From NCBI RefSeq assembly GCF_000427425.1, contig NZ_KE386495.1, positions 919,072 through 983,071 of the forward strand: a stretch of DNA of 64,000 nucleotides, in the 5' to 3' direction. The translations under genes were made by a program, and so were the position numbers. This DNA comes from Caldanaerobius polysaccharolyticus DSM 13641 (GTDB lineage: Bacteria > Bacillota > Thermoanaerobacteria > Thermoanaerobacterales > Caldanaerobiaceae). The notes below the pieces were generated by a model, which was given only the letters and a program-made list of their open reading frames with translations, had not been told where the DNA came from and ran no database searches. Of the stretch, positions 49,745 through 58,871 are shown piece after piece; position 1 is the first letter of the stretch; each line of letters opens with the position of its first letter.

Positions 49745-50188
49745 GTGAAAAAAGTATACGCGAAGGAAGAAGTATGCATTGGTTGTAAGCTGTGTGAAGT
49801 ATACTGCATAACATCCCATTCTAAATCCAAAGACGTGATAAAGGCGTATAAGCTGGAGCAGCCTAGACCTGTGGCCAGGTTGGTTGTAGAGGAGGACAAA
49901 CCGGTTTCTTTTTCCCTTCAATGCAGGCACTGTGATAAAGCGCCGTGCACTAAAGCGTGCATCACAGGCGCGATGAGAAAAGATCCTGTTACAGGTGTGG
50001 TCACGTGCGATACCGACAAATGTGTTGGATGCTGGTCGTGCATAATGATATGTCCTTTTGGGGTTATTAATAGAGACACAAATAAAAAGGTGGCATCAAA
50101 ATGCGATTTGTGCGCAGAAACAGGTACGCCCGCATGTGTTGCCAATTGCCCCAATGAAGCGTTGGTGTACGAGGAAAGGGTGGTTTGA
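49745..50188 (+). CDS. Four-cluster ferredoxin subunit of the split GOGAT operon
   Basis: A 147-residue HycB/DmsB-like iron-sulfur protein with four Cys groups: CIGCKLCEVYCITSH, CRHCDKAPCTKACITGAM, CDTDKCVGCWSCIMICPFG and CDLCAETGTPACVANCPNE. These would bind four 4Fe-4S clusters and shuttle electrons between the flavoprotein encoded next and the FMN subunit encoded before. GTG 49745 follows AAAGGGGGTAAAAGC. The stop overlaps the start region of the flavoprotein gene. Confidence 0.9.
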   Translation: MKKVYAKEEVCIGCKLCEVYCITSHSKSKDVIKAYKLEQPRPVARLVVEEDKPVSFSLQCRHCDKAPCTKACITGAMRKDPVTGVVTCDTDKCVGCWSCIMICPFGVINRDTNKKVASKCDLCAETGTPACVANCPNEALVYEERVV

Positions 50189-50190
50189 TG

Positions 50191-51459
50191 ATGAGGTACG
50201 TTATAATAGGAAATTCTGCTGCAGCAGTAGGCGCTATAGAATCTATCAGAAAGTACGATAAAGACAATGAGATCATGGTTATCTCTGAAGAGCCTTATCA
50301 CGTGTATTCAAGGCCATTGATATCCTATTTCCTCGGCAATAAGGTTGAAAAAGACAGGATGATTTATAGAGAACAGGATTTTTACCAAAAAAATAAAGTC
50401 ACTACTGTCCTTGGTTGCAAAGCGACTAAAGTGGATACCCGTGCTAAAGAAGTGCTGCTGGAAGACGGAAAAAAGGTAGGTTTTGATAGATTATTGGTGG
50501 CTACGGGAGGCAAGCCGTTTATACCATCGGTGAAAGGATTGGATAAGGAAAATATCCATACCTTTGTCAAAATGGATGACGCAATAAGGTTAAAAGAATC
50601 CGCAAAACCTGGCTCAAAGGCCGTAGTAGTTGGCGGTGGTTTGATAGGTTTTAAAGCGTCAGAAGGTTTAAGGGACTTGGGCGTGGACGTTACTGTTGTA
50701 GAGCTAGCCGATAGAGTGCTTAGCGCTATACTGGACGTCCAGGGAGGACTGATGGTGCAAAAGAGGCTGGAACGCTTTGGTATACACGTAATCACTCAAA
50801 ACACCGTAGAAGAAGTCGTTGGAGACAGAAAAGTAAAAGGCGTGATTTTAAAGGACGGAAAGATGTTGGAATGCGACAATCTAATTATAGCTATTGGCGT
50901 TGTACCCAATAAAGAGGTAGTGGAGGGAACTGATGTTGCTGTAAATAGAGGCATAATCGTTGATAGGCATATGATGACCAATATACCGGGAATATACGCT
51001 GCGGGAGATGTGGCAGAAGCGTACGATATGTTAGCGCAGCAGAACAGGGTTATACCAATTTGGCCCAACGCGTATATGCAGGGAGAAGTGGCAGGTGCAA
51101 ACATGGCAGGCTGTGACATGATTTACGACGGCAGTTTTGCCATGAATTCTATAGGTTTTGAGGATGTGCACATGATAACAGCAGGCGTGATAAATCCTCC
51201 CTCCGAAGACTATGAGGTGTTGGTCAAGGCAGACGAGCAAAACACGGTTTATAAAAAACTGGTGCTAAAGGACAACAGATTGGTTGGTTTTATAGAGATT
51301 GGAAAGATCGATAGGGCGGGTATATATACCAATCTTATAAAAGAAAAAGTGGATGTGTCATCGTTTAAAGATAAATTATTAAAAGATGATTTTGGGTACG
51401 TGGACCTTCCTAAAAAATACAGGAAGCAAAAGATGCTGGGGATGGTGGTGCCTGCATGA
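50191..51459 (+). CDS. FAD/NAD(P)-dependent oxidoreductase of the GOGAT operon
   Basis: A 422-residue pyridine-nucleotide-disulfide-type flavoprotein. FAD loop YVIIGNSAAAVGAIESI at the N terminus, NAD(P) loop VVVGGGLIGFKASEGLRDLG near residue 150 with an acidic VVEL end that favours NADH, and FAD motif IPGIYAAGDVAEAYD near 280. It resembles NADH:rubredoxin/nitrite reductase-type reductases without extra domains. It probably supplies electrons from NADH to the ferredoxin subunit for GOGAT. ATG 50191 and 50188 are both possible; AAAGGGTGG fits 50191 slightly better. Overlaps the next gene as ATGA. Confidence 0.88.
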   Translation: MRYVIIGNSAAAVGAIESIRKYDKDNEIMVISEEPYHVYSRPLISYFLGNKVEKDRMIYREQDFYQKNKVTTVLGCKATKVDTRAKEVLLEDGKKVGFDRLLVATGGKPFIPSVKGLDKENIHTFVKMDDAIRLKESAKPGSKAVVVGGGLIGFKASEGLRDLGVDVTVVELADRVLSAILDVQGGLMVQKRLERFGIHVITQNTVEEVVGDRKVKGVILKDGKMLECDNLIIAIGVVPNKEVVEGTDVAVNRGIIVDRHMMTNIPGIYAAGDVAEAYDMLAQQNRVIPIWPNAYMQGEVAGANMAGCDMIYDGSFAMNSIGFEDVHMITAGVINPPSEDYEVLVKADEQNTVYKKLVLKDNRLVGFIEIGKIDRAGIYTNLIKEKVDVSSFKDKLLKDDFGYVDLPKKYRKQKMLGMVVPA

Positions 51460-52190
51460 AGATTATTGATGCGTCAGGTATGTACTATAGAGAATTAAAT
51501 GAAAGGATAAAAGAAGAGATAAAAAAGGGAGAAAAAGAAATTTATCTTAAAAATGTAAACGGTCAAAGGTATATAGGCGATGGCATAAGCTCGGATGCCA
51601 AGATTATCATTGAAGGCACTCCTGGCAACGACATGGCGGCTTTTATGGATGGGCTCACTATAGAAGTAAAAGGCAATGGGCAGGATGCCATAGGTAATAC
51701 CATGAATGAAGGCAAAGTCATAGTACATGGTCATGCTGGCGACGTGATTGGATATGCTATGAGAGGCGGTGTTATATACGTAAGAGACGATGTGGGCTAT
51801 CGAGTGGGAATCCACATGAAAGAGTATATGGATAAAGTGCCTGCTATTGTCGTGGGAGGTTGTGCAGGAGATTTCTTTGGAGAATATATGGCAGGAGGTA
51901 TCCTCATACTCCTGGGCCTCAATAGGGGAGAAAAGGATATAGTAGGAGATTTTTGCGGCACGGGTATGCACGGCGGCGTCATGTATATTAGGGGAGATGT
52001 AGAAGATTATAAGCTGGGAAAAGAAGTAAAAAAAGTCCCTCTGGACGATAGGGATATGAGCATAATATCTGCGTATGTAGAAGAATACGCGAAGCTGTTT
52101 AACGTGGATTTTAATGAAATAATGAAAGAAGATTTTATAAAGCTTTATCCTTACAACAAGAGGCCTTATGGCAAGTTGTATACCCACTGA
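51456..52190 (+). CDS. Split glutamate synthase: GXGXG beta-helix subunit
   Basis: A 244-residue protein matching the C-terminal GltB domain (GXGXG/FwdC-like right-handed beta-helix). Repeated turns: IIEGTPGNDMAAFMDG, IEVKGNGQDAIGNTMNEG, VIVHGHAGDVIGYAMRGG, IYVRDDVGYRVGIHM, VVGGCAGDFFGEYMAGG, VGDFCGTGMHGGVMYIRG. In full-length GltB it links the ammonia tunnel to the FMN domain, so it completes the enzyme. ATG 51456 overlaps the flavoprotein stop by 4 bases. It closes the five-gene operon; glnA follows after 148 bases with its own promoter. Confidence 0.9.
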   Translation: MKIIDASGMYYRELNERIKEEIKKGEKEIYLKNVNGQRYIGDGISSDAKIIIEGTPGNDMAAFMDGLTIEVKGNGQDAIGNTMNEGKVIVHGHAGDVIGYAMRGGVIYVRDDVGYRVGIHMKEYMDKVPAIVVGGCAGDFFGEYMAGGILILLGLNRGEKDIVGDFCGTGMHGGVMYIRGDVEDYKLGKEVKKVPLDDRDMSIISAYVEEYAKLFNVDFNEIMKEDFIKLYPYNKRPYGKLYTH

Positions 52191-52206
52191 CCATTTGAAA
52201 TGGCGG

Positions 52207-52235
52207 TTGCGCTGTGCGTTTTGATATGATATAAT
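52207..52235 (+). promoter_or_regulatory. Promoter of glnA
   Basis: TTGCGC (52207-52212), 17-bp spacer, extended -10 TGATATAAT with TATAAT at 52230-52235. Transcription starts near 52242, giving a leader of about 97 bases. Confidence 0.7.
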
Positions 52236-52264
52236 AGACATAAAAGAAAATAGTGATAAAAAAA

Positions 52265-52307
52265 GGGCAAGGGCGTCCTCAGAGGCATGAAATATGCTTT
52301 TTCTGAG
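52265..52307 (+). promoter_or_regulatory. Structured glnA leader, possible ANTAR target
   Basis: Hairpin one: GGGC (52265-52268), six-base loop AAGGGC, GTCC (52275-52278); the loop has A at 1 and G at 4, the known ANTAR-hairpin rule. Hairpin two: CTCAGA (52278-52283) with TCTGAG (52302-52307), inner GCAT/ATGC; its loop does not fit that rule. TACGCTTTTTG follows. With an ANTAR gene directly after glnA, antitermination control is a reasonable guess. Confidence 0.45.
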
Positions 52308-52338
52308 TACGCTTTTTGTGTATGGAGGAGGATTTTAG

Positions 52339-53670
52339 ATGGCCAGTTATTTGTCTAAGGAAGACGTATTGAGAATTGCCCATGAAAGAGGAGTTGAGCT
52401 GATACATTTACAGTTTTCTGATATATTTGGGATAATGAAGAATGTTACAATACCCATTGAAGAACTGGAAAGGGCGTTAAATAATGAACTGATGTTTGAC
52501 GGATCTTCTATAGACGGATTTGTGAGGATAGAAGAATCGGATATGTATTTAAGGCCTGATCCTTCTACATTTGTGATTTTTCCGTGGAAATACGATGGTG
52601 TTGAAGCGAGATTGATTTGCGATATATATAACCCTGATGGCACGCCTTTTGAAGGCTGTCCCAGAAACGCTCTGAAAAAAGTGATAAAAGAAGCCGCTGA
52701 TATGGGGTTTAAAATGAATGTGGGACCTGAATGCGAGTTTTATCTTTTCCTCACTGACGAAAAGGGGAATGCGACGACTATTACTCACGATGAAGCCAGT
52801 TACTTTGACATGGCTCCTGTAGATTTAGGTGAGAATGCCAGAAGGGATATGGTGAGAACGTTAAAAGAAATGGGATTTGAAATCGAAGCTTCTCATCACG
52901 AGGTAGGGCCAGGTCAACATGAAATAGATTTTAAGTATGATGACGCCTTGTCTACAGCTGATAAAATATTGACGTTTAAAATGGTGGTTAGAATAATAGC
53001 TCAAAAACATGGATTGCATGCTACTTTTATGCCAAAACCCGTATTTGGTATAGCAGGTTCAGGGATGCACATGAACCAATCATTAGTAAAAGATGGCAAA
53101 AACGCATTTTACGATCCTGAAGGGGAATTGAAATTAAGTGAAATAGCTTATAATTACATTGGAGGTATAATGAAACACGCCAAGGCTATCACTGCAATAA
53201 CCAATCCCACAGTGAACTCATATAAGAGATTGGTCTCAGGTTATGAGGCGCCTGTGCATATTGCGTGGTCTGCCAGAAATAGAAGTCCGTTGATCAGAGT
53301 TCCCGCTAAGAGAGGGATGGCCACAAGGATCGAATTGCGAAGTCCGGATCCTACTGCAAATCCCTACCTCGCTATTGCGGTGATGTTAAAAGCGGGTATC
53401 GATGGGATTAAGAACAAAATAAAGCCGCCGGCTCCTGTAAACAGAAACATATTCGATTTAACAGACAGCGAATTAAAAGAGCTGAATATAAGCAGTTTAC
53501 CTGGTACGCTGGAAGAAGCTTTAAACTGCCTTGAAGAGGATCCTTTGATAATGTCAGCATTGGGTCCCCATATCTCGAAAAGGTACATTGAGGCTAAACG
53601 CATAGAATGGGATGAGTTCAGGGTATACGTGACCCAATGGGAATTGGATAAATACCTTCAAAAGTATTGA
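52339..53670 (+). CDS. glnA: Glutamine synthetase type I
   Basis: Makes glutamine from glutamate, ammonia and ATP. 443 residues, the GSI-alpha length, without the adenylylation-loop insertion of GSI-beta. Beta-grasp start [22 protein letters not shown]; latch [19 protein letters not shown]; metal/substrate motif [31 protein letters not shown]-site [26 protein letters not shown] and [30 protein letters not shown] are signatures. ATG 52339 has GGAGGAGGA upstream. Own promoter and leader; next gene is the ANTAR regulator, 24 bases on. Supplies glutamine to the split GOGAT upstream. Confidence 0.96.
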
Positions 53671-53694
53671 GAGGACGTAGGGGGGGTATGGGTC

Positions 53695-54264
53695 GTGGCA
53701 CAGTACAAGATTATAATAGCCGATAGCAATGATAGCACGCGTGCAACCCTTAAGTCCATTTTGATGCAAAACGGTTATTTCGTATACGAGACCCAAGACG
53801 GTTCTTCTACGGTTCGCCTTGCCAGGAGCTTAAAGCCTGATTTGGTAATAGTGGATAACAATATAATCGGTATTAACGGCTTTGAGATAATAAAGATTTT
53901 TGAAGAAGGCAGGATTTCTCCCATATTATTTATCTCTAACACTATTGGAAAGGAATTCATGGAAGAATTAAGGGAAAAATGCAATTTCACTTATATAACC
54001 AGGAGTTTGGACAGAAATAGCCTTATACAGATTATAGATTATATAATATACACTTCGAAGAAAATCGCAAAAATGCTTGATGAAATTGAGCAATTAAAGC
54101 GCACGCTGGAATCTCGCAAAAAGATAGAAAAAGCTAAGGGTTTGTTGATGAAAGTAAAAAATATGTCTGAAGACGACGCATATAAGTATATGAGAAAGAG
54201 GAGCATGGATAAAGGCATTCCCATGGAGCAGATAGCCGATGCCATAATAATCATGTATTCGTAA
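53695..54264 (+). CDS. ANTAR RNA-binding antiterminator with degenerate receiver
   Basis: A 189-residue regulator. N-terminal receiver-like domain (1-120): [19 protein letters not shown], with candidate phospho-Asp in [15 protein letters not shown] (D54); but the usual acidic pair is reduced to AD-S, and the conserved Lys-Pro near residue 105 is replaced ([11 protein letters not shown]), so normal phosphorylation is doubtful. A coiled coil [20 protein letters not shown] leads to the ANTAR three-helix domain, [27 protein letters not shown] and [12 protein letters not shown] 53695 follows GGGGGGT 7 bases away. Placed after glnA as in many Clostridia, it likely controls glnA or nitrogen genes by antitermination at the leader described. 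Confidence 0.88.
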
Positions 54265-54371: not shown

Positions 54372-54413
54372 AGAATAGAGACGATGAAATTTACCTTTTT
54401 TGAGGTGGTAATT

Positions 54414-55820
54414 ATGGGTAGAATTCTATCTGCGTATTTGATGCCTCATCCTCCTATAATAGTTCCGGATGTAGGGCGAGGGGAAGAAGAGAAACTGCAA
54501 ACTACTATTTCTAGCTTAAATAAAGTGGCAGATCAGGTGAAAGATTTAAGGCCGGATACCATTATAGTCATATCTCCCCATGGGTATGTATTCAGAGATG
54601 CCGTGTCTATAAATGCGCAATCACATTTGAGGGGAACCCTGACCAGGTTTGGAGCTCCTGGGGTAGATATAGCTTGTGAAAGCGATATAGATTTAGTAGA
54701 TATGGTGATTGATGAGGCTGAGAAAAAAGGTATTCCCGTTGTTAAAATAGACCGCGATGCTTTAAAAAAATATTCTCTGCCAGAAGAGCTGGATCATGGT
54801 GCAATTGTTCCCCTTTACTTTGTCACTAAACGGTATACCCTTTTTAAGTTAATACACATGGCTTTTGGATTTTTACCCTATGAACAGCTCTATGAATTTG
54901 GAGTTGCTATTCAAAAGGCTGTGGAGAAATCCGATAAAAATGTGACATTCATTGCCAGCGGGGATCTCTCCCACGTTTTGACCCCTGACAGCCCCAATGG
55001 TTATTCACCTAAGGGTAAGGTTTTTGACGAGAAATTGATGAATCTACTAGGAAAAATGGACGTCGTGGGCGTGATTAATATGGACAGAAACCTGATCCAG
55101 GAAGCGGCTGAATGTGGTTTTAGATCCGTATGTGTCATGTTGGGTGTCTTGGATGGTTATGAGGTTGATGCCAGAGTTTTATCCCACGAAGGGCCTTTTG
55201 GAGTTGGGTACGGCGTAGCTGAATTTTTGGTAAAAAAACCTGGAAAACAAAGCCTTGTAGACACACTGTATGATATCAAAAAAAATCGGATAGCTCGCAT
55301 TAGGGAAAACGAAGATCCTTATGTAAAGCTGGCAAGGCAGAGCCTTGAATACTATGTAGAACACAAAAAGCCGTTGCCGCTGCCTGACGGTTTACCTGAG
55401 GAGATGCTAAAACAAAAAGCTGGGGTATTTGTATCGATTCATAAAAATGGCGATTTGAGAGGATGCATAGGCACGATTTATCCACAGAGAGAAAACGTAG
55501 CTCTGGAGATAATAATGAACGCCATCAGTGCCGGATTTGAAGACCCTAGGTTTTATCCTGTAGAAAAAAACGAGTTATACGAGCTTGAGTATTCTGTGGA
55601 CGTTTTAATGCCACCAGAGGCCGTAAGGTCAAAAAGCGAACTGGATCCTAAAAGATACGGTGTTATCGTGAGGAGCGGTTATAAATCGGGTCTTTTGTTG
55701 CCGGATTTAGAGGGCGTGGATACAGTGGATAAACAGATTTCCATAGCCCTTAGAAAAGCAGGTATAAGGAGTGGAGAAAGCTATACTATTGAGAGGTTTG
55801 AGGTAGTGAGACATAAATGA
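54414..55820 (+). CDS. Memo-AMMECR1 fusion (AmmeMemoRadiSam proteins B and A)
   Basis: A 468-residue fusion. Residues 1-265 are a Memo / class III extradiol dioxygenase-like domain: [21 protein letters not shown] (metal His), [29 protein letters not shown] and [20 protein letters not shown] carry the conserved His/Asp/Glu set. Residues 300-468 are AMMECR1: [23 protein letters not shown] with the LRGCIG signature, [12 protein letters not shown] and [14 protein letters not shown] 54414 follows GAGGTGGT; an ATG at 54384 lies upstream of that. The radical SAM partner overlaps its end by 4 bases. The three components usually co-occur, and their reaction is still poorly known. Confidence 0.92.
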
Positions 55821-56800
55821 AAAAAGCTATGTACTATGAAAGATGTGAGGACAAAGTTGTACAATGTGAACTCTGCCCCCACCGCTGTAGGATACGCGAA
55901 AGCGCATATGGGATATGCGGGGTTAGAAGAAATCTTGATGGAGATCTTATAGCAGAAAGTTACGGTAAAATCACTGGTATAGCTATGGATCCTGTAGAAA
56001 AAAAGCCTCTTTACCATTTTTACCCTGGGAAGTATATACTTTCTATAGGGTCTTTTGGCTGTAATCTTAAATGCTCTTTTTGCCAGAACTGGCACATTTC
56101 ACAGAAACGCGCAGACTTCAGATTGATAAGTCCAGAAGAATTAGTAAGCATAGCGGAAATGCAAGAGGGAAATGTAGGAATTGCGTATACCTATAATGAG
56201 CCATCAGTGGGGTATGAATACGTCTATGAATGCGCGCAGCTAGCGAAGCAGCGGGGTTTAAAAAATGTAATGGTGACCAACGGCTACATAAGTATCCAAC
56301 CTTTAAACGATATACTTCAATACGTCGACGCGATGAACATAGATGTGAAGTCTTTTTCTGACGAATACTACAAAAAGCTTTGTGGAGGGAAATTGAACGA
56401 TGTAATAAAGTCGGTGGAAACTGCTTATGCCAGATGCCATGTGGAGTTGACTACGCTAATCGTCACAGGAGAAAATGATGACTTAAAAGAGATAAAAGAG
56501 CTGGCGAAATGGGTTGCTAGTATAGATAGAGACATTCCTTTGCATTTTACGCGATATTATCCTGCCTACAAAATGAAAAATCCGGCTACCCCTGTAGAAA
56601 CGCTTTTAAAAGCTTATCAGATAGGCAAAGAGTACCTCAACTACGTGTATATAGGCAATGTAGTGGGTATTGATCGCAACACCTATTGTCCGGAGTGTGG
56701 TAACCTACTTATAAAGAGGATGGACTGGGTCGAGGTTGAGGGCATAACAGATGAGAAGAAATGTTCCAGATGTGGTAAAAATATAAAAATTCAAATTTGA
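55817..56800 (+). CDS. AmmeMemoRadiSam-system radical SAM enzyme
   Basis: A 327-residue radical SAM protein of the PflA-like subgroup. A leading Cys motif [19 protein letters not shown] (second cluster or Zn site) precedes the radical SAM motif [14 protein letters not shown], a C-x3-C-x2-C. The barrel has [26 protein letters not shown] and [16 protein letters not shown]; near the C terminus [11 protein letters not shown] and [10 protein letters not shown] form a Zn-ribbon. ATG 55817 overlaps the Memo-AMMECR1 stop by 4 bases (ATGA). The pair is conserved in archaea and anaerobes; a peptide- or tRNA-modifying function has been proposed, without proof. Confidence 0.92.
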
Positions 56801-56825
56801 CTTATAGTCAGCTTCTTTATATAAT
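56797..56825 (+). promoter_or_regulatory. Promoter of the UspA-like gene
   Basis: TTGACT (56797-56802), 17-bp spacer, TATAAT (56820-56825). The -35 box overlaps the stop codon of the radical SAM gene. Confidence 0.75.
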
Positions 56826-57298: not shown

Positions 57299-58870
57299 CA
57301 GACTGTAGACAAAGTCCAAGGAATCCCTTATAATAAAAAGGATTCCTTGATTTTTATATTTTTGTAAAAAATAAAGAACGAACAAAAAAGAAGGAGAGGA
57401 AAAGATGCTAACAATAAAGAAAGATGACGCAAGAAACCAAGTAGAACTTATATCGATAGATCAATTAGTCCCCCAAGACCACTTAGTAAGAAAAATAGAA
57501 AAAGCAATTGATTTTGATTTCATATATGATCTAGTGAAAGACAAATATTGTGAAAACAATGGACGCCCAAGCATTGACCCTGTAGTATTAGTCAAAATAG
57601 TATTAATTCAGTACCTATTTGGTATTCCATCAATGAGAAAAACAATAGCGGAAATACAAACAAATGTAGCTTACCGATGGTTTTTAGGATATGGATTAAA
57701 CGAGGAAATACCCCATTTCTCTACCTTCGGCAAAAACTACGAAAGAAGATTTAAAGACACAGACATTTTCGAAAAGATATTTACAAAGATACTAGAAGAA
57801 GCCATAAAGCACAAATTCATAAATCCAGAAGAAGTATTCATAGATGCAACCCATGTAAAAGCGAGTGCTAATAAGAGAAAGTATTATAAAGAAATAATAG
57901 AAAAAGAGAGTAAAAACTATCAGGCAAAATTAGAAGAAGAAATAGCAAAAGATAGGGAATTACATGGTAAGAAGCCATTAAAGCGAACAGAAAAAGTTGA
58001 GACAAAAGAAGTAAAAGTTAGTAAAACAGATCCTGACAGTGGGATGTTAAACAAAAATGAGAAAGAGAAATGTTTTGCATATTCCTTTCACACGGCCTGC
58101 GACAAAAATGGATTTGTTTTAGCAGCAAAAGTAACAGGTGCAAGCGTACATGATAGCGTAATGTTCGAAGAAGTATTAGATGAGGTGATAAAAAACACAG
58201 GAAAACCCAAGGCAGTAGCGGTAGACGCAGGCTATAAAACACCGTACATAATGAAGACGATGCTTGACAGAGAGATAATACCAGTAGTACCTTACACAAG
58301 GCCAATGACAAAAGATGGTTTTATGAAAAAACACCAATACGTGTATGACGAATATTATGACTGTTACATATGTCCTCAAAATGAAATATTAACATACGTT
58401 ACGACTAACAGAGAAGGATATAGGGAATACAAATCAAATCCAGAGAAATGCAAGGACTGTCCATTAAGGGACAGATGTACAGCGAGCAGAGATTATACAA
58501 AAAGGATATATAGGCACGTATGGGAAGGATATGTAGAAGAAGCGGAGCATTTAAGGCATACACCATATAATAAAGAAGTATATGCGAGAAGGAAAGAGAC
58601 AATAGAGAGAGTATTTGCAGATATGAAAGAGAAGCATGGTTTGCGATGGACAACGTTAAGAGGTATAAAGAAATTGTCCATGCAGGCGATGCTTGTTTTC
58701 GCATGCATGAATTTAAAAAAATTAGCGACATGGCTATGGAAAAGGAGCAAGAATCCCACACCTTTGCGCGAACTTTATCCAATATTTGCTAAAATATATA
58801 CAATTATATCCAAACGCAAAGCAAACCCCACTTTTTACGTGTATAAAAAGTGGGGTTTGTCGTCAATCTG
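57299..58870 (+). mobile_element. IS1182-like insertion sequence
   Basis: 1572 bp. Ends are imperfect inverted repeats: left CAGACTGTAGACAAA, right (complement) CAGATTGACGACAAA, 12 of 15 identical. A 16-bp direct repeat flanks it. Rejoining the flanks gives AAAGGACT-TTTT-AGTCCTTT followed by a U-rich tract, so the element entered the terminator of the UspA-like gene. Inside, hairpins near both ends (GGAATCC/GGATTCC at 57320-57350; AACCCCACTTTTTA/TAAAAAGTGGGGTT at 58826-58860) may shield the transposase from outside transcription. Confidence 0.9.
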
Positions 58871-58871
58871 A
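57405..58871 (+). CDS. IS1182-family DDE transposase
   Basis: A 488-residue transposase, apparently intact. N-terminal DUF772 region: IDQLVPQDHLVRKIEKAIDF, GRPSIDPVVLVKIVLIQYLF, TNVAYRWFLGY. Catalytic DDE: Asp in VFIDATHVKASANK, Asp in AVDAGYKTPYIMK and Glu in RKETIERVFADMKEKHGLR; a Cys-rich insertion CYICPQNE...CKDCPLRDRC lies between. ATG 57405 is behind GAAGGAGAGG. The stop TGA takes its last base from the target duplication. Low-GC codon use (many ATA, AGA, AAA) looks unlike the neighbouring genes, fitting recent arrival. Confidence 0.93.
   Translation: MLTIKKDDARNQVELISIDQLVPQDHLVRKIEKAIDFDFIYDLVKDKYCENNGRPSIDPVVLVKIVLIQYLFGIPSMRKTIAEIQTNVAYRWFLGYGLNEEIPHFSTFGKNYERRFKDTDIFEKIFTKILEEAIKHKFINPEEVFIDATHVKASANKRKYYKEIIEKESKNYQAKLEEEIAKDRELHGKKPLKRTEKVETKEVKVSKTDPDSGMLNKNEKEKCFAYSFHTACDKNGFVLAAKVTGASVHDSVMFEEVLDEVIKNTGKPKAVAVDAGYKTPYIMKTMLDREIIPVVPYTRPMTKDGFMKKHQYVYDEYYDCYICPQNEILTYVTTNREGYREYKSNPEKCKDCPLRDRCTASRDYTKRIYRHVWEGYVEEAEHLRHTPYNKEVYARRKETIERVFADMKEKHGLRWTTLRGIKKLSMQAMLVFACMNLKKLATWLWKRSKNPTPLRELYPIFAKIYTIISKRKANPTFYVYKKWGLSSI

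Follow-up and report, generated by a model that had tools for sequence, protein, structure and literature searches.

The closest described counterpart of the locus reported here is the AmmeMemoRadiSam system, which is represented by three NCBIfam models, AmmeMemoSam_A (TIGR04335), AmmeMemoSam_B (TIGR04336), and AmmeMemoSam_rS (TIGR04337), for proteins A and B and a radical SAM enzyme. PMC11081632 names H49, H81, and C244 as the iron ligands of human MEMO1, notes that in structures C244 occupies the place of the dioxygenase glutamate, and states the primary molecular function of MEMO1 as unknown. PMC6393860 tabulates the archaeal AMMECR1 family among the uncharacterized proteins of top priority, and the LRGCIG motif of AMMECR1 includes a glycine that a variant in a human family alters (PMC5502304). 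PMC7159879 cites Burroughs et al. 2019 (J Biol Chem 294:10211) for "Memo-Ammecr1 systems", and PMC7694686 refers to it for 15 superfamily families; it may well describe the LigB-AMMECR1 fusion, for which a search of titles and abstracts within a limited library found no paper. In its lineage, the locus is the normal form of this known, widespread, and unexplained enzyme system, and the useful correction made here concerns its first domain, which is LigB-type and carries the cysteine of Memo.

The locus lies in a window of 64,000 nucleotides, the whole stretch of DNA that was analysed, and comprises two genes on the forward strand. A ribosome-binding site (GAGGTGG, 54402-54408, + strand), read in the sequence, precedes by 5 bases the ATG at 54414 of the LigB-type/AMMECR1 fusion gene (54414-55820, 468 amino acids, stop codon 55818-55820 included), which was identified by its open reading frame, Pfam, NCBIfam, and a confident AlphaFold2 model (mean pLDDT 95.3, pTM 0.88). 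The second gene (55817-56800, 327 amino acids, stop included) encodes the AmmeMemoRadiSam radical SAM enzyme. The profiles, all over their cut-offs, support the proposal of the initial annotation that two genes supply a three-part system. The overlap that it also described is present, the radical SAM gene starting at 55817 within ATGA and sharing 4 bases with the fusion gene, but it is incidental and no conserved trait because 15 of 77 measured pairs overlap, the remaining 62 having gaps of 3 to 579 bases (radical SAM starts estimated from the profile).

Protein A scored over the cut-off in 53 of 61 genomes (that of the window and 60 relatives), and 51 of these 53 matches were in frames of at least 450 residues. 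When 149 genomes were drawn evenly from the phylum, curated cut-offs identified the AMMECR1 protein in 113 and the radical SAM enzyme in 111. Any frame running from stop to stop over 420 or more residues was counted here as a fusion, and a profile check of the LigB-type half covered the 81 fused frames from loci that were fetched; 101 of the 113 AMMECR1 matches were in open frames of this length. Both genes occur in 110 genomes, and in 105 of them the radical SAM gene was directly downstream. Because of these last two proportions, the fusion is the ordinary form of the AmmeMemoRadiSam system in this lineage, and the idea that the arrangement is something special finds no support; fusion and overlap were both rejected as rarities.

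The initial annotation had named independent phylogenetic profiles, along with a lack of interaction, as what would speak against it. On the first count the outcome favours it: the profiles are far from independent, with both genes in 110 of the 149 genomes, AMMECR1 only in 3, radical SAM only in 1, and neither in 35 (Fisher p = 2e-29, a statistic that ignores shared ancestry, which inflates the counts). One AMMECR1-only genome (G107) has an adjoining radical SAM match of 219.2 bits against the cut-off of 220, in another (G138) the radical SAM gene is cut by a contig end, and in the radical SAM-only genome (G047) the AMMECR1 match is interrupted and 2 bits below the cut-off. Genome G059, given as 99% complete, has no radical SAM match, and its fusion (L174, contig 13, 1289-2704) is an intact frame with the metal-site and LRGCIG residues.

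The AMMECR1 domain of the fusion (residues 304-465, 55323-55808) scores 156.8 bits against Pfam AMMECR1 (PF01871; cut-off 25) and 130.5 bits against AmmeMemoSam_A (cut-off 99), and its model is matched by PH0010 (1vaj) at Z 21.4. The LRGCIG motif (residues 348-353, 55455-55472) is the obvious candidate for a functional site on AMMECR1, since all 105 AMMECR1 domains share its L, R, G, C, and final G. Glycyl radical enzymes typically have an invariant glycine in a motif of the RxGY/F type. The RxGY-like glycine of the fusion, G422, is Gly in 71 of 81 LigB-fused and 9 of 10 Memo-fused domains, and a classical glycyl-radical motif was rejected given the variation of this candidate.

The radical SAM protein scores 325.9 bits against AmmeMemoSam_rS (cut-off 220) and gave a confident AlphaFold2 model (pLDDT 97.7, pTM 0.93). 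The cysteines of its CX3CX2C radical SAM cluster (C82, C86, C89; 56060-56083) and four N-terminal cysteines (C17, C20, C24, C34; 55865-55918) are invariant in 66 sequences, and a C-terminal zinc-ribbon-like set (C291, C294, C316, C319; 56687-56773) has each cysteine in at least 90% of them. The nearest solved fold is that of the pyruvate formate-lyase (PFL)-activating enzyme (3CB8), with Z 24.9 over residues 46-279 and the next family at 18.4; Foldseek gives the same ranking. This likeness and the adjacency of the genes are what an activase would be expected to show, that is, an enzyme that abstracts a hydrogen from the fusion as the PFL-activating enzyme does and installs a radical or a lasting modification, and peptide-processing conflict systems do contain a relative of the radical SAM domain found in Memo-AMMECR1 systems (PMC7159879). 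Such a role is unlikely in the light of the inconstant G422, a PFLA model score of 59.7 bits against a cut-off of 231.75, and the intact fusion of G059, which has no radical SAM match to accompany it.

The initial annotation placed Memo and AMMECR1 in one chain. The fused chain and its AMMECR1 half stand, but the N-terminal half is LigB-type by profile and by fold, and the label "Memo" is in need of correction. Pfam LigB (PF02900) covers residues 7-268 (54432-55217) with 207.4 bits (cut-off 26.3), compared with 35 bits for Pfam Memo (PF01875; cut-off 27) on residues 40-258 and 37.9 bits for AmmeMemoSam_B (cut-off 26) on residues 127-258 only, about half of the protein B part. Among solved folds, TK2203 (5HEE) best fits model residues 1-277 (Z 34.0, 260 residues, 2.8 A), followed by aminophenol, homoprotocatechuate, gallate, and protocatechuate dioxygenases, in accord with Foldseek; several dioxygenases fit at Z 23-30, with aminophenol dioxygenase at 30.1, LigAB at 26.1, and Memo1 at 20.5. 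Judged by the best score over the whole domain, the protein thus falls outside the Memo family, family score and fold agree on the LigB type, and the cysteine in the third-ligand column is a Memo character.

Conservation was assessed in 59 non-redundant fusions (76 full-length ones thinned to less than 85% identity), in all of which H12, H56, D127, D184, S186, H187, and C234 are unchanging. His12 (54447-54449) and His56 (54579-54581) are the predicted first and second metal ligands, His12 corresponding to LigB H12 and MEMO1 H49 as named in PMC11081632, and Asp184-Leu-Ser-His187 (54963-54974) is a putative acid-base site. They are joined by Glu233-Cys234 (55110-55115), a LigB-type beside a Memo-type ligand position, in which residue 233 is Glu in 54 of the 59 fusions, Gln in 3, and Met in 2. 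A motif pattern missed this residue in 7 of 88 LigB-type frames, and a profile alignment was used instead, covering 86 of the 88; the remaining two are fragments of one broken copy (L003). The third-ligand column is Cys in 86/86 frames (81 fused, 5 unfused) and the residue ahead of it Glu in 79, Gln in 5, and Met in 2, so that, wherever a fusion lacks one member of the pair, the Glu is the one lost.

When aligned by profile with 34 sequences of canonical Memo, C234 falls on the invariant Memo cysteine (probability 98.8%, 15% identity), which we equate with MEMO1 C244; all 34 have Cys in this column, without Glu before it. Alignment with solved structures places E233 on Glu251 of aminophenol dioxygenase, an iron ligand (PMC11081632). 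The residues aligned with the dioxygenase Glu and the Memo Cys are therefore neighbours in the sequence of the fusion. TK2203 and an archaeal relative (L186) have Asp at the position of Cys234.

With LigB as the best Pfam family and mostly dioxygenases among the best-fitting folds, the domain might be taken for an ordinary extradiol dioxygenase of the LigB/HpaD/AmnB type, opening rings with O2 through His12, His56, and Glu233 while the Cys is structural. The two His and one Glu of the dioxygenase type are present in the window, and with Glu233 there and in 79/86 frames, a 2-His-1-carboxylate site could therefore be formed. Against this, the Cys is unchanging whereas the Glu is lost to Gln or Met in 7/86 relatives, the NCBIfam dioxygenase models score far below their cut-offs (HpaD_Fe, 62.1 of 315.95 bits), and the gene is tightly linked to that of a radical SAM enzyme (110 of 149 genomes). 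Radical SAM enzymes are a class that is generally oxygen-sensitive. We regard an ordinary dioxygenase as quite improbable: O2-dependent ring opening is the less likely chemistry because the unchanging residue predicted as third ligand is a Memo-type Cys and the partner a radical SAM enzyme.

We instead infer that the LigB-type domain takes Memo's place in a known three-part pathway, with iron and radical chemistry as proposed below, a reading to which we give a probability of roughly 0.5. Its architectural part is well supported, comprising the fusion, adjacency, co-occurrence, invariant residues, and lack of a canonical Memo in our sample, and a LigB-type domain with Memo's cysteine fills Memo's place in the system here. 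The domain is probably an iron enzyme independent of oxygen. It would bind Fe(II) via His12, His56, and Cys234, with Glu233 nearby and proton transfer by His187 and perhaps His128, and its chemistry would more likely be that of a lyase, a hydrolase, or a redox enzyme than the opening of rings with O2. The radical SAM enzyme, resembling the PFL-activating enzyme, may make a radical on a substrate held in the LRGCIG pocket of the AMMECR1 domain, and the iron domain may then finish or reverse the change on the same compound. Taken by itself, this combination of iron domain, radical SAM, and AMMECR1 chemistry is tentative, and we would sooner bet against it than for it.

Most likely the parts belong to a single pathway, with the radical SAM enzyme and the iron domain both acting on a compound bound by AMMECR1; the linkage is the component of this reading that was directly observed. 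The fusion of G059, with no radical SAM match in its genome, counts against a single pathway, and to our knowledge humans have MEMO1 and AMMECR1 without such a radical SAM enzyme. Candidate substrates are side chains of a protein or peptide, and nucleotides, the latter suggested by general background on these families. A protein or peptide is favoured by the PFL-activating-enzyme fold and the related domain in conflict systems, and by RiPP recognition elements to which Memo-like domains are attached (PMC12710340). It is also conceivable, as a distinctly long shot, that the radical SAM enzyme equips the invariant Gly-Cys of LRGCIG, the motif affected by a human disease variant, with a radical or a lasting modification, that the LigB-type domain uses it for oxygen-free chemistry at a mixed Glu-Cys iron site, and that this domain represents a surviving intermediate form between Memo and the dioxygenases that open rings.

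A separate canonical Memo in the window's genome was rejected, the single PF01875 match being on the fusion itself. PF01875 is a poor detector of the LigB-type domain (the window's genome scored in one search and not in that of the 149 genomes), and the absence of canonical Memo was therefore judged by inspecting all 22 matches in the 149 genomes rather than by a tally. None is a canonical Memo: 9 are secreted-looking proteins and 13 lie on the fusion or, in one genome (G125), on an unfused LigB-type frame that precedes AMMECR1. Canonical Memo was searched with a stricter profile; an iterated Memo profile drifted into LigB. Secreted-looking (by eye) Memo relatives from nine genomes of the phylum (L132-L140) have Asp in the third-ligand column in 9/9 and are perhaps a family of their own.

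Unfused LigB-type, AMMECR1, and radical SAM genes occur in a row in Sporomusa (L029), Halanaerobium (L034, L041, L059), and one further locus (L121). The fusion is not required for the system, since Sporomusa and Halanaerobium have the three as separate genes. More distant arrangements were sought among 80 named loci, the best 80 of the radical SAM relatives listed and hence biased to relatives of the window's protein, 35 of them with and 45 without a LigB-type gene. For 42 of the latter, the genome was searched for Memo, AMMECR1, and LigB, giving a PF01875 match in 38, an AMMECR1 match in 37, and LigB over the cut-off in 8, with 3 weak ones on Memo genes. Memo and AMMECR1 share one frame in 18 of the 42, which we take as true Memo-AMMECR1 fusions; they were called by common contig, strand, and frame length, with an hmmscan check of one (L092). 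Canonical Memo is close to the radical SAM gene in only three of the 45 listed loci without a LigB-type gene (L063, L071, L092) and in none of the other 42, so outside the LigB-type group the linkage of Memo and radical SAM is loose.

In the AMMECR1 tree, the bootstrap of which is unsettled, ten Memo-fused domains and one unfused domain (L164) are separated by a 100/100 branch from the LigB-fused domains; a further domain labelled unfused (L053) is merely cut by a contig end. D396 and Q441 are present in 81/81 LigB-fused domains, and the ten Memo-fused domains have S or T and F or T instead. From this split and these residue differences, a Memo-superfamily domain thus seems to have been fused ahead of AMMECR1 more than once. 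Two natural variants deserve mention: a radical SAM-canonical Memo fusion (L063, 3977-5845), closely preceded by AMMECR1 as a gene of its own, in a MAG that carries the label Ilyobacter polytropus, and a canonical Memo-AMMECR1 fusion (L092, 2528-4084) in an Omnitrophota MAG, the frame of which overlaps the radical SAM frame. The latter has a hydrophobic N-terminal stretch by eye and is perhaps exported.

Upstream of the fusion, the row at 49745-54264 holds by eye a ferredoxin-like protein, an oxidoreductase, a glutamate-synthase-like domain, and a glutamine synthetase, together with an ANTAR response regulator (profile match). A genome of the same genus (G001, L175) keeps this gene order, with 1.9 kb to the fusion versus about 150 bases in the window. 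Downstream, a transposase-like frame (57405-58871, by eye) lies between KdpD/Usp-like and cdaA-like genes. Matches to these two genes are 140 bases apart in G001, and the frame is probably a recent insertion because that gap has no room for it. Scans for promoters and terminators gave no more matches than chance would (11 vs a mean of 11.8, and 1 vs 2.7); one promoter-like match (11/12), part of this chance-level count, lies at 56797-56825, at the end of the radical SAM gene and ahead of the KdpD/Usp-like gene. A nucleotide search of a plasmid collection gave no match to either gene. In the 35 LigB-type loci listed, the recurrent neighbours beyond the radical SAM gene look housekeeping and gave no functional clue. 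That the two proteins merely share a housekeeping operon and have no joint function is very unlikely: genes resembling by eye those for ribosomal S9 and L13, cwlD, cdaA, ybbR, and glmM recur in the neighbourhood, any one of them in 4 to 11 of these loci, but presence and absence are near-identical across the 149 genomes and other fusions join the same parts (radical SAM-Memo in L063, Memo-AMMECR1 in L092).

The Glu-Cys pair is a natural variation on the residue that separates Memo from the dioxygenases, and it makes the question of Memo's role testable by mutation of Cys234 and Glu233 and by use of the natural Gln and Met versions. The system resembles AmmeMemoRadiSam in having all three models over cut-off with the genes side by side, and differs in that the protein B part is a weak, half-length match and the domain is LigB-type. 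TK2203 is the nearest solved fold of this domain, although it is a 262-residue chain without AMMECR1 and has Asp where the fusion has Cys234. The beta subunit type of 2-aminophenol 1,6-dioxygenase (3VSG/3VSH; Z 30.1) shares the fold and the Glu ligand aligned with Glu233, whereas it has Val after this Glu instead of Cys and opens rings with O2. The third-ligand Cys is shared with human MEMO1 and canonical prokaryotic Memo (PF01875; fold Z 20.5), in contrast to their 15% identity to the fusion domain and the missing Glu before the Cys in 34 sequences. Likewise, the radical SAM protein has its nearest solved fold in the PFL-activating enzyme, from which it differs by an additional N-terminal part with four cysteines and by a ribbon at the C-terminus, and its score falls far under the PFLA cut-off.
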